A DNA stretch of 39,325 nt from an uncultured bacterium (lineage in GTDB: Bacteria; UBP6; UBA1177): positions 1 through 39,325 of the forward strand of contig CAMZDX010000007.1 of assembly GCA_947305505.1 (NCBI GenBank), read 5' to 3'. This document shows positions 1 to 12,429 of the stretch, one piece after another (positions within the stretch are counted from its first letter, which is position 1; each line of letters opens with the position of its first letter). The translations under genes were made by a program, and so were the position numbers. The notes below the pieces were generated by a model. The model was not told where the DNA came from. It worked only from the letters and a program-made list of their open reading frames with translations, and did not search any database.

Positions 1-1093
1 CAAGAAGATAGAGGATCGTCGAGGAATCTTCCGAAATCATTATCGGGTCACCGCCCATGATGGGATCTCCGCCCATTATCGGATCGCCACCCGCATAAAC
101 AAGTTTTGCACGGACAATATATTCGCCGGGATTTACTGTCGAAATCTTGTGCATCGCCGAAATGCTTGTCGAATTCAGAGCCGTCCACTCAATTTTGAAC
201 CCTTCAGAAACTTCATTACTCCCTCCTTCGACATTGAGTGATACCTCATTACTGCTTGGATTAGCCGTGTTTATAACGACTTCATTTCTGTTGGCCGTGA
301 TTTTGAAGCCGTTAAAAAATTTCTCAAATTCGCGTCCGTCTGTTTTCTGAACATCGGCTGCAATTTTTTCCGACAGTGTTTTTGAATCGGTCGTATTGAG
401 GAAAGATGAAAGAAGTCTGAGTCCTTCCGAAATGCCTGAAAGCTTGGAATAATCAAGCTCTCCCAGCCATTCACCAGTTCCGAGTTTCGCGTATGCGCGA
501 ACTTTTGTTTCGCTTTTTCTCAAATCTTCACAGTTTGAATCAAGGAGAAGAACAGCATTCGTTATTTCTGAAATGTTCGCGACATGATCACTCATACCTT
601 TGAAGCAGCTTGCAAAACCGTTTGCCTTGACGCAGTATGTTTTTGAAGCATAAATATCGGCGTTGAATGAATATTTTCCGTTTGAATCGGCATTTGTGGA
701 AACAATTTCATCTGTTTTTCCACATTCTACAAGGACTGCCTTGATTCCCGAGACATCATCCCCCACCTGAATAACACCACTTATCTTGTGATTTTCAGCT
801 GGTTCCGGTTCTTCGATATCGTTGTCTTCATCCGGAATTACAAGATTATCCTGTTCTTCGGGTTCGTTGTCTTTATCGTTTCTGCTGTCTTCATCGCTAG
901 TATCTGAGTCTTCATCGTCAATGTTTGAGTCTTCATCGTTGTTCGATGTGTCAACTTCGTCTGAATCATAATCATTGACATCCGTCTGATCATTGTCGGG
1001 TTTAGTGCTCTCTTCACTGCCGCCGCTGTCTCCGCCGCAACCGAAAATGAAAAGCAAACTCAACATTGCCAGAAAAACCAAAAATCTTCTCAT
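1..1093 (-). CDS. Lipoprotein with acidic spacer and GGDPIM repeats (3' end beyond window)
   Basis: The open frame starts at ATG 1093 and runs off the left edge, giving about 364 codons without a stop. The N-terminus is a lipoprotein signal (MRRFLVFLAMLSLLFIFGC) with the lipid-attached cysteine at residue 19. A stretch of about 65 residues rich in Asp, Glu, Ser and Asn follows. Next comes a segment resembling a carboxypeptidase-regulatory-like beta domain (about residues 105-150, beginning KISGVIQVGDD), then Ser/Asn-rich beta sequence. Near the edge lie three tandem GGDPIM units between the predicted strands GEYIVRAKLVYA and SSTILYLL. It is probably anchored in the outer membrane facing the surface or periplasm; its function is not recognised. 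It is transcribed alone, away from radC. Confidence 0.8.
   Translation of the reverse strand, partial: MRRFLVFLAMLSLLFIFGCGGDSGGSEESTKPDNDQTDVNDYDSDEVDTSNNDEDSNIDDEDSDTSDEDSRNDKDNEPEEQDNLVIPDEDNDIEEPEPAENHKISGVIQVGDDVSGIKAVLVECGKTDEIVSTNADSNGKYSFNADIYASKTYCVKANGFASCFKGMSDHVANISEITNAVLLLDSNCEDLRKSETKVRAYAKLGTGEWLGELDYSKLSGISEGLRLLSSFLNTTDSKTLSEKIAADVQKTDGREFEKFFNGFKITANRNEVVINTANPSSNEVSLNVEGGSNEVSEGFKIEWTALNSTSISAMHKISTVNPGEYIVRAKLVYAGGDPIMGGDPIMGGDPIMISEDSSTILYLL
38..91 (-). repeat. Three tandem 18-bp units encoding GGDPIM
   Basis: Three in-frame copies start at 38, 56 and 74. All three encode GGDPIM with different synonymous codons. Two of the copies match, over 15 bases, units of the 27-bp repeat at 11773-11961 in another lipoprotein gene. 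Confidence 0.92.
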
Positions 1094-1146
1094 CTTTTTC
1101 TCCACTATTTTTTAAACATAATAATTTTCAACAAAAAAAACGCGCG

Positions 1147-9168: not shown

Positions 9169-12100
9169 CTATTCCACAACTGCTAACTGAACGCATGCCT
9201 CACCGTCCCAGGAATAGTCTTTATTGCATTCGCATGCATATCCGGTTTCGATTTCAGGATCAGTGGTCGTAAAGCATATTCCGGTCGCATTTTCAACCGA
9301 TGCACACGGATTTCCGGCACACGCGCTCTCTCCTCCTGAAACGCAGCGGACATCCGCAGCATAATAAGAATCCGTCGATAGCGTGTAAATTGAGCCGCCG
9401 GTAAAATCGACTGCATTGACTTCCCCGTCATTGAGATCCGAAGTCCAGAAATACGATATGTCGCCGAAAACAGAATATCTGCCGTCAACAGTCATTCTGC
9501 ACGGAGCTTCTTCACAGTTCCTGAGAAGTGTCTGAAGTTCAGCCGTTGTCGGAAGTCTCCAGAAGTTTTCAGGATCATCTTCATTGAGAGGGGCGCAGAA
9601 TTCCTTGGCTTCAGACCACAGCAATTCTTCAGGCGCAGGTTCCGACCACGTGAGTCCTGTTTCAGGATCTGTGTAGGGAGCGGTCTTATAATTGTTAAGG
9701 GTGTTGTCAAGAACACATCTCTGGACAAGATAGGAAAGTGGAACTGAAAAGCCATGTTCAATCTTGCCTTCATAATACCACAATTCAGGGCTTTGTTCCT
9801 GTTCCGCATCCCAATATTCCATGTTGAATGTGCCTGACATAATGATCCCGTAATCGTTCAAGGTCGTTTTTGAAGCTGTATCACCGGTGCAGTCCTCTTC
9901 ATCAAAGTATGAATCTGTGAAATGTTCATCCGTTACGGGGCAGCTTCCGTTAAATTTGAGTTTTTCGTCCGTTACGGTTTTGCGGATCTCGTCTATTGTC
10001 GGAAGTCTCCACTTTTTCGAGCCGTTTTCATTCAGATTCCGGCACATTTCGGCAAGACCGTAAAAATAGACTGTTGCATAGCTGCTGTTTCTGGCATGGC
10101 TGATATAAGACTTGTCAAAACCTGCAAAAATTTCTGGGTAGAGCCTTGATGACCAGGTAATGCCGTTCTCATCTGTGCAGGGTCCAGTTCCGGTTCCGTC
10201 ACACTCCGGAGTTTCCTCTTTTTCAGCAAGATCGCTTCTTACGCAGAGGACTGCGGGAGCATCTTCTTCCTCCGCGATTTCGTCTCTTTTAATGCTCCTG
10301 ACTGATCGCGGCTGCTGCGGTCCTACTACCGGTTCGCCCGATGCTTCTCCATACGGGAAAACGGCTCCTCCCTGCATATTGAGAACCCATACATAATAAT
10401 CAACAGGAGCAGGAGTCGAAGTCCAGAAGACATCAGGAGTCATACCGGGGAATGAAGAGATTGCCTCAACTTCGTCTTCTTCCTCAGTTTCTTCCTCTTC
10501 TTCTGCTTCCGCTTCCGCCGCTATTTTGGAATAGTCTACAAGAGAAAGAAGTTCGTTCTTGTTCGGAAGTCTCCAGTCGGAATGTCCCGCATAGTCAAGG
10601 CTTTCGCAGTAGGCAAGCGCCTCTTTCCATGTCGCCTTTTTGACCGGCTCTTTCTGCCAGAAAAGGTCTGTGGATAAATCGCGTATCATTTCCGCACCGT
10701 TTTCAGTAACGGTGGAATATGTTTCAGCACTGACTTTGCCGTATTCATCTCCGCTGACACACATAAGGTAGCCAGATGGAGAAGAACTTTCAACACCTGT
10801 AACCAATTCGGCAAGCACGCCGTACTCAAGCAGATAGAAATAATTTTCAACCGATGTAAGGATCAAATCAGGAACGTATGATTTGGTATACTCCGGCTCT
10901 GCTGTTCCTAAGTAAAGTTCTTGGAAATAAACCGGATCGATCTTGCTGCCGTAAAGCATTCCGAGATCGGAAAGGCTTGCTATTTCCTGCGGTTCTGGAA
11001 GTCTCCAGTCCTCGATCCCGCCGTATGAAACTGCACATTCGTCTTTCATCTCTTCGTAAGTTCCGCCTTTTCCGGTAAGCCACCAGATAAGACCGGTAAC
11101 ATTGTCTTTGATGAAAGGAGGTTCCTGAACCGTTGCTCTCAACTCTATCTCATGTTCTTCCGGATTTTCGATTTCGGTGTAGCTGTGCACAACGCAGCCT
11201 TTTCCTGCGGCATACTGCGCATCCTGTCCGTAAAGTTCTTCGTTTTCTTTCGGACAGAGGATCTGGTTTCCTTCGCCGTCGGTACATATCGCCATGCCCG
11301 TGCAGAGCACTTTGGAATAAAGCTTCTGACAGTCGTCAGAGCAGTTTGAACCAGACACGGCTTTGTCGCACTTTTCACCGTTTTCAGTATCGACCACGCC
11401 GTCGCCGCAGTAGGAAACCGAACCTTCCGCGATCTGACAGTTTGTCGTGCAGACCGTGCATGATGTTTCGCCGTAAGCACACGCGGTCTGACCGTTATCC
11501 GTTCCATTGTCGCACGCTTCGCCGGGATCAACAATACTGTTTCCGCATTCTGCGACATAAGTGTCGATGTCTTCATCAACAACCGGTGTTTCATCCTCAT
11601 CAACAAGTATGATTTCATCTTCGTCCGATGTATCGACATCGTCTTCTTCATCTGTAATTTCGGCATCATCTTTATCATCTTCAGGTTCTTCTATAGGCTC
11701 ATCGACAGGTTCTTCCTCATCTTCAACATCAACGAAGAAAAATGCGTAAGCGGTGAAGTGACCAGTCGTCATCATTATCGGGACACCTGCAGCCGAATGC
11801 ATGATGGGATCTCCCGCCGCTGTTACCATGATGGGATCTCCGGCCGCGCTCAGCATGATGGGATCTCCGGCCGCACTCATCATGATCGGGTCACCTGCAG
11901 CATTCAGCATTATCGGGTCACCGGCAGCATTCTGCATGATCGGGTCACCTGCAGCGTTCTTGCCGACTTTTACCGCAGCTCCGGTTTTGCTGTAACTCCA
12001 CTGACCTTTCTCCTCTCTGTAAACCGCCGCAGTGATGACTTTTTTCTTAGCCGCCTTGAGTTCTTCGCCGGTTCCTGTGCTTATCATCGAGATAAAAACG

Positions 12101-12429
12101 GGTTTTTTGAAAATCGTGCCTGAAGGTTCAAACTCGACTACCTTGCTGATAACGGTTTTGTCTTCGGTTCCGGGATAATCCTTGGCTTCATATACTCTCA
12201 TCGTGATCGTTATGTCACTTTCGAGAGCATCAGCCGGAATTTCAATTGAAACCGATTCGTCGGAACTTTGAATAGTCCCGCCTTCTTCGGCAGAAATTTC
12301 TTTCGAGACCTCTTCTTCGAACAACGGTTTTTCATCATTTTGTTCAGGTTTGTTTTTTTTCTTGCTGTTGCAGGATGCAAGCGCAAAAAGCGAAACAAAA
12401 ACCATAATCAAACAAAGCACGCGTTTCAT
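9169..12429 (-). CDS. Giant mosaic lipoprotein: beta domain with AAGDPIM repeats, Cys-rich repeats, four Lcl domains, EGF-like tail
   Basis: This 1086-residue lipoprotein has its lipobox at LASC (cysteine 20) and a strong AAGGAGG site before ATG 12429. Residues about 45-235 look like a ZU5-like beta domain (IPADALESDITITM to TTGHFTAYAFF) interrupted by seven nonapeptide repeats at 157-219. A highly acidic spacer covers about 236-290. Two Myxococcus-type cysteine-rich repeats (CGNSIVDPGEACDNG; CGDGVVDTENGEKCD) lie at about 295-368. Four Lcl/DUF1566 domains follow, each marked by WRLP at residues 475, 619, 807 and 957. The last 40 residues are cysteine-rich and EGF-like (CACECNKDY-type spacing). 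It is probably exposed at the cell surface, in adhesion or matrix binding by analogy with Lcl proteins; that role is inferred. Confidence 0.85.
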   Translation of the reverse strand: MKRVLCLIMVFVSLFALASCNSKKKNKPEQNDEKPLFEEEVSKEISAEEGGTIQSSDESVSIEIPADALESDITITMRVYEAKDYPGTEDKTVISKVVEFEPSGTIFKKPVFISMISTGTGEELKAAKKKVITAAVYREEKGQWSYSKTGAAVKVGKNAAGDPIMQNAAGDPIMLNAAGDPIMMSAAGDPIMLSAAGDPIMVTAAGDPIMHSAAGVPIMMTTGHFTAYAFFFVDVEDEEEPVDEPIEEPEDDKDDAEITDEEDDVDTSDEDEIILVDEDETPVVDEDIDTYVAECGNSIVDPGEACDNGTDNGQTACAYGETSCTVCTTNCQIAEGSVSYCGDGVVDTENGEKCDKAVSGSNCSDDCQKLYSKVLCTGMAICTDGEGNQILCPKENEELYGQDAQYAAGKGCVVHSYTEIENPEEHEIELRATVQEPPFIKDNVTGLIWWLTGKGGTYEEMKDECAVSYGGIEDWRLPEPQEIASLSDLGMLYGSKIDPVYFQELYLGTAEPEYTKSYVPDLILTSVENYFYLLEYGVLAELVTGVESSSPSGYLMCVSGDEYGKVSAETYSTVTENGAEMIRDLSTDLFWQKEPVKKATWKEALAYCESLDYAGHSDWRLPNKNELLSLVDYSKIAAEAEAEEEEETEEEDEVEAISSFPGMTPDVFWTSTPAPVDYYVWVLNMQGGAVFPYGEASGEPVVGPQQPRSVRSIKRDEIAEEEDAPAVLCVRSDLAEKEETPECDGTGTGPCTDENGITWSSRLYPEIFAGFDKSYISHARNSSYATVYFYGLAEMCRNLNENGSKKWRLPTIDEIRKTVTDEKLKFNGSCPVTDEHFTDSYFDEEDCTGDTASKTTLNDYGIIMSGTFNMEYWDAEQEQSPELWYYEGKIEHGFSVPLSYLVQRCVLDNTLNNYKTAPYTDPETGLTWSEPAPEELLWSEAKEFCAPLNEDDPENFWRLPTTAELQTLLRNCEEAPCRMTVDGRYSVFGDISYFWTSDLNDGEVNAVDFTGGSIYTLSTDSYYAADVRCVSGGESACAGNPCASVENATGICFTTTDPEIETGYACECNKDYSWDGEACVQLAVVE
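11773..11961 (-). repeat. Seven tandem 27-bp units encoding a nonapeptide with AAGDPIM
   Basis: Exact 27-bp periodicity begins at 11773 and repeats through 11961. Six units encode AAGDPIM and one AAGVPIM, each with two variable residues. Two nucleotide versions alternate in blocks: GGTGACCCGAT(A/C)ATG and GGAGATCCCATCATG. Being multiples of three, unit gains or losses would keep the reading frame. Confidence 0.96.

Follow-up and report, generated by a model that had tools for sequence, protein, structure and literature searches.

GDPIM pentapeptide arrays in ZU5 and unrelated lipoproteins of an uncultured bacterial phylum: a candidate recognition motif of surface proteins

Short repeated segments inside protein-coding genes are known in the form of the Rickettsia palindromic elements, and self-cleaving domains are a further described system to which the locus presented here can be compared. 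PIDD and Nup98 cut themselves at HF↓S (PMC3210808), and self-processing has been proposed for bacterial ZU5 surface proteins (PMC3482391). We analyzed a stretch of DNA of 39,325 nucleotides (the window; contig C7 of genome G000, G000:C7:1-39325) from a 1.63 Mb genome, 59% complete, of the uncultured phylum UBP6, in which two lipoprotein genes on the minus strand carry tandem units of the pentapeptide GDPIM. Gene 1 (2..1105, -) is incomplete at the contig end and encodes a lipobox (LLFIFGC, read from the sequence) and an Asp/Glu-rich linker; no Pfam domain was found in it. Close to its cut end lies an array of three 18-bp units (GGDPIM x3; 38..91, -), in a hairpin flanked by GEYIVRAKLVYA and ISEDSSTILYLL. 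The GDPIM 15-mers of these units are GGTGACCCGATAATG (38-52), GGAGATCCCATCATG (56-70), and GGCGATCCGATAATG (74-88), all on the minus strand, with the preceding codon completing each GGDPIM unit. The same site holds one to eight units across relatives, in which the gene has a second, longer array further on.

Gene 2 (9169..12429, -) is complete and encodes, in order, a lipobox, a ZU5 domain (PF00791; 12085..12291, -) supported by profile and fold matches, a GDPIM array, the sequence GHFT, an Asp/Glu-rich linker, and several Lcl_C domains. The array (11773..11949, -) consists of seven 27-bp units, six GDPIM and one GVPIM, with a period of 9 residues, and 4 residues past the last unit follow the HFT codons (11752..11760, -; coordinates from the reading frame) of a predicted ZU5-type autocleavage motif, GHF↓T. 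As the preliminary description had reported, two of the gene 1 15-mers recur exactly in this seven-unit array, GGAGATCCCATCATG three times (11800-11868) and GGTGACCCGATAATG once (11908-11922), and the unit is indeed 6 residues long in gene 1 and 9 in gene 2. With up to three mismatches allowed, the window contains 8 and 9 matches vs 0.8 and 0.5 expected, counts that no shuffle reached. The Lcl_C (DUF1566) domains of gene 2 are present in several copies, and this fold is a known target of diversity-generating retroelements. Downstream, the start of an outer-membrane-type gene (DUF6029, PF19494; 7431-9179, -) overlaps the end of gene 2 by 11 bases; a DUF6029 gene and a GDPIM lipoprotein gene are adjacent in locus L148 too, and a DUF6029 gene was also matched in L154.

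The shared 15-mers had been taken as a sign of exchange between the two genes or of the spread of a small repeat, on the argument that protein selection alone would not give two such sequences in common. When codons were drawn from the genome's other arrays, at least two of the three units were shared in about 10% of trials, and when whole units were drawn from the other six arrays this rose to about 20%, which corresponds to chance sharing at P of about 0.10-0.20. On average, units of the two window arrays match each other at 12.72 of 15 positions, which is the level for pairs of arrays in general (12.71). Furthermore, Asp GAC is always followed by Pro CCG in the units of this genome (27 out of 27; P = 2.5e-7 against GAT), a strong codon-pair effect, and part of the apparent linkage between the shared 15-mers is codon context. 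Codon preference, which had been named as a possible counter-explanation, accounts for a portion of the pattern: for Pro and Ile, the surrounding genes use CCG and ATC most often. Because sharing by chance is this frequent, the identity of the two arrays is average and codon context contributes, the shared 15-mers provide no evidence for exchange between these genes, and we rejected such exchange on the codon test. Some exchange among units is possible, given that similarity among units is slightly higher within an array than between arrays (P = 0.02) and that third positions are poorly conserved in close orthologues, as described below.

A search of the whole genome with GGNGAYCCNATHATG gave 63 matches (reversed control: 0). 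All 63 GDPIM-coding 15-mers lie in frame within eight genes, every one of which has a lipobox in the sequences read, so that the copies outside lipoprotein genes that the preliminary description had suggested looking for did not turn up in this genome. The lipoprotein family carrying the motif that it had envisaged does exist, with eight out of eight hosts here and at least 109 out of 125 in the wider collection: a strict lipobox rule was passed by 109 of 125 hosts with an intact start vs 56 of 424 neighbouring proteins, counts that come from incomplete MAGs and in which pieces of a single gene at neighbouring loci may have been scored separately. Among 25 genomes of the order, 24 carry GDPIM (3 copies in G007 and 6-114 in the others; reversed-pattern controls 0), and the sole exception is G013, a genome of the same genus that is 97% complete and has neither a GDPIM unit nor a match to the gene 1 family. 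No GDPIM was found in three genomes from another family of the same phylum, and unrelated genomes contained no copies or one to two isolated ones. One MAG with many arrays, CSSed165cm_107 (L111, L162, and L164), is labelled Candidatus Sumerlaeota. Its arrays share their contig coordinates with those of G018, a member of the family to which the window belongs, and the MAG is probably mislabelled.

In a scan of GTDB genomes, the matches listed were mostly to UBP6-type MAGs from rumen, sediment, and digesters. Also among the matches listed were isolated cases of two to three units in a Bacillota, a Bacteroidales, and an Acidobacteriota MAG, and proteins of 109-131 residues with six to seven units in rumen Spirochaetes (L058, L071, L120, and L125), which are the only GDPIM clusters in those genomes. 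Each of these spirochaete MAGs has one such small exported protein, in which GDPIM units make up most of the sequence and the spacers are conserved (DxKGNYYIL). Transfer of GDPIM between rumen Spirochaetes and rumen UBP6 is possible. We considered the spirochaete proteins as precursors of multi-core peptide products and discarded this idea, as no maturation genes were seen beside them. Viral spread was likewise rejected, since neither viral contigs nor phages gave a single GDPIM match; plasmids gave only weak matches, to calcium-binding proteins.

The DNA of the units varies far more than the peptide. Across 960 units in 139 protein sequences there were only about 20 near-miss pentapeptides, so that the peptide is fixed in about 98%, and no codon for Gly (four), Asp (two), Pro (four), or Ile (three) is missing from the units. 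Seven close orthologues, with 90% identity beyond the units, have kept the peptide without change and agree at only 56% of the third positions of its codons. This agreement (0.565) compares with 0.75 at other conserved G/D/P/I codons and was lower in 19 out of 21 pairs, which are not independent of one another; families that have diverged further show this effect weakly or not at all. As the peptide is nearly invariant despite mixed synonymous codons, selection acts on the peptide, and this selection is strong. The low conservation of third positions may in addition reflect turnover of units.

The main host of the arrays is the ZU5 domain. Gene 2 scores 31.7 bits over the whole protein and 35.2 bits over the segment with the PF00791 profile, above the curated cut-off of 21, a profile search of the PDB returned ankyrin-3 (E = 3.6e-8), and the top Foldseek matches of the gene 2 model were the ZU5 domains of ankyrin and UNC5b (E about 1e-5, whole-query TM 0.4-0.48), followed by GAIN. 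All 55 aligned hosts match PF00791 at E <= 0.01, and GDPIM is present at every one of the 25 ZU5 loci read in the order. A match of the array region to PGDYG (PF14083) lay below the cut-off and was not used. H[FY][ST] follows 120 of 141 arrays, at a distance of exactly 4 residues in 91 and exactly 13 in 25, and its H and F are invariant in alignment A1; the form of this predicted cleavage motif is that of the HFS of PIDD and Nup98. Since the other 21 arrays have no H[FY][ST] behind them, autocleavage cannot be a general requirement for whatever role the motif plays. A loose regular expression retrieved about a dozen ZU5 domains from other bacteria, in which the same five positions before HF[ST] read GDTIY, GDVIY, GNTVT, NNTVS, ANTLT, THTVT, and the like (a composite ZU5 query of our own writing served only to find a Deinococcus protein, L291). 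Other ZU5 domains thus have different turns in the same register, which argues that the fold alone does not require GDPIM, and judged from these sequences GDPIM looks like a specialised, frozen form of an otherwise loosely conserved ZU5 turn. In G013, the only ZU5 lipoprotein (L170) carries a longer insert without GDPIM where the array would lie, and GHF[ST] is replaced by GHLG, a single case of joint loss.

Arrays also occur in hosts outside ZU5, namely an alpha-amylase lipoprotein, a right-handed beta-helix lipoprotein, an FGE-sulfatase-domain protein, a dockerin-like and a macroglobulin-like lipoprotein (both judged by eye), and an exported protein that has no Pfam match and is transglutaminase-like by eye. 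In one lineage the amylase reads KYTWLFRLFEA, five units, IPIW, and its homologues read in relatives all have an ordinary hairpin turn such as KYSWLFRLVDENGEKIEPFFVPIW; the array stands in place of the hairpin turn and would have entered an unrelated gene. The DNA of the amylase array is at most 80% identical to that of other long arrays, so it is not a fresh copy.

We propose that GDPIM is a protein-level repeat, a reading that we prefer tentatively and rate slightly short of an even chance. It would most likely have originated as the beta-hairpin turn that, in bacterial ZU5 domains, comes before the predicted self-cleavage position HF↓[S/T], an origin suggested by the register of the about 12 outside ZU5 sequences. 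The turn would have been fixed as exactly GDPIM in this order of bacteria, multiplied in tandem in steps of 27 or 18 bp, and subsequently placed into unrelated lipoproteins, in their hairpins or linkers. Each unit may then act as a short recognition element for a cell-surface or periplasmic partner, with avidity set by copy number. A recognition element is suggested by the five residues being nearly invariant while the spacers and synonymous codons vary. No gene family was found to recur broadly beside the arrays when a partner gene was sought there, and the outer-membrane-type gene after gene 2 was dropped as a linked partner, being matched only at L148 and L154. A further-reaching form of this proposal, possible in our estimate and held with less confidence, is that GDPIM would be a recognition code of surface proteins, read by a dedicated factor for sorting, anchoring, or modification. 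This code would be linked to ZU5 self-cleavage in most hosts, and it would have been multiplied on many lipoproteins of an uncultured phylum that has it in common with rumen spirochaetes.

The units could instead be purely structural, lengthening the beta-hairpin to form a small solenoid or stalk by which the C-terminal domains are positioned, with AAGDP forming the turns, IMxx the strands, and no reader of the motif. This explanation is somewhat doubtful and nevertheless comes close behind recognition, because the model of the window's ZU5 domain with its array builds regular strands of 3-4 residues every 9 residues (pLDDT 70-80), which suits a structural role as well. The prevailing spacing of 9 residues (552 of 821) and the range of copy number at one site fit it too. 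However, 132 spacings are of 6 residues and others of 10-24, so that no single solenoid geometry fits, and the I and M of GDPIM are nearly constant, although structural repeats usually accept exchanges among I, V, L, and M. The array taken in isolation also models poorly, as a long array outside ZU5 gave a pLDDT of 38, too poor to use. We favour recognition by a partner over a purely structural repeat given that other turns are tolerated, that the spacing varies, and that the same five residues are kept in unrelated hosts.

Enzymes offer another way to account for an invariant short motif that is present in many copies on exported proteins: the units might be substrates of a modifying or cleaving enzyme, acting for example at the Asp-Pro bond, without any binding partner. 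This bond is chemically labile and the arrays adjoin the predicted autocleavage site, but no modifying enzyme was seen recurring beside them and cutting at every unit would fragment the proteins; we consider this unlikely. Less probable still is a selfish or mobile small DNA repeat that enters genes by insertion or conversion at the DNA level, in the manner of the Rickettsia palindromic elements and in line with the spread suggested by the preliminary description. The amylase array, absent from the homologues, would suit such an element, as would the turnover of units suggested by the slight likeness within arrays and by the third positions of close orthologues. A self-spreading repeat nevertheless fits poorly with a peptide that is almost invariant, is read in one frame only, uses every synonymous codon, and in this genome has no copy outside predicted lipoprotein genes, and no other array exceeds 80% identity to the amylase insert. 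The recognition proposal, if correct, would open up the surface biology of an uncultured phylum found in ruminants, and it would make testable both the self-cleavage of bacterial ZU5 domains at HF↓[ST] and the control of this cleavage by an array at that site.

Compared with described systems, the closest counterparts are the ZU5/GAIN/Nup98-type autoproteolytic domains (PIDD, CARD8/NLRP1, and bacterial ZU5 surface proteins), with which the GDPIM hosts have in common a ZU5 domain recognised by both profile and fold, the HF[ST] motif in the C-terminal strand, and an N-terminal position in exported multidomain proteins. A tandem GDPIM array directly before the HF[ST] strand sets the GDPIM hosts apart and is not mentioned in the cited portions of PMC3210808 and PMC3482391. 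Where the superfamily, as described in PMC3482391, has the Cys of CxH, GDPIM hosts have TGHF or VGHF: the residue two before the His is Thr, Val, Ala, or Met, with Cys absent among the common ones. The nonapeptide repeats of RTX proteins (CyaA) resemble the arrays in their 9-residue period, the GD dipeptide, and a weak similarity (E = 0.02), but GDPIM has Pro at the position of the calcium-ligand Asp, no GGxGxDxUx, and unit lengths of 6 as well as 9 residues, and we therefore rejected RTX membership. Like Rickettsia palindromic elements, the units are short repeats within coding genes; in place of conservation as DNA, several frames, and intergenic copies, the 63 copies occupy one frame in eight genes with mixed codons and are conserved as a peptide. 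Among the papers searched, none of those that contain the letters GDPIM concerns bacterial lipoproteins. In its fixed peptide with varying codons, and in hosts that range from lectin-like lipoproteins to an amylase, GDPIM resembles the recognition motifs behind sortase and PEP-CTERM systems.
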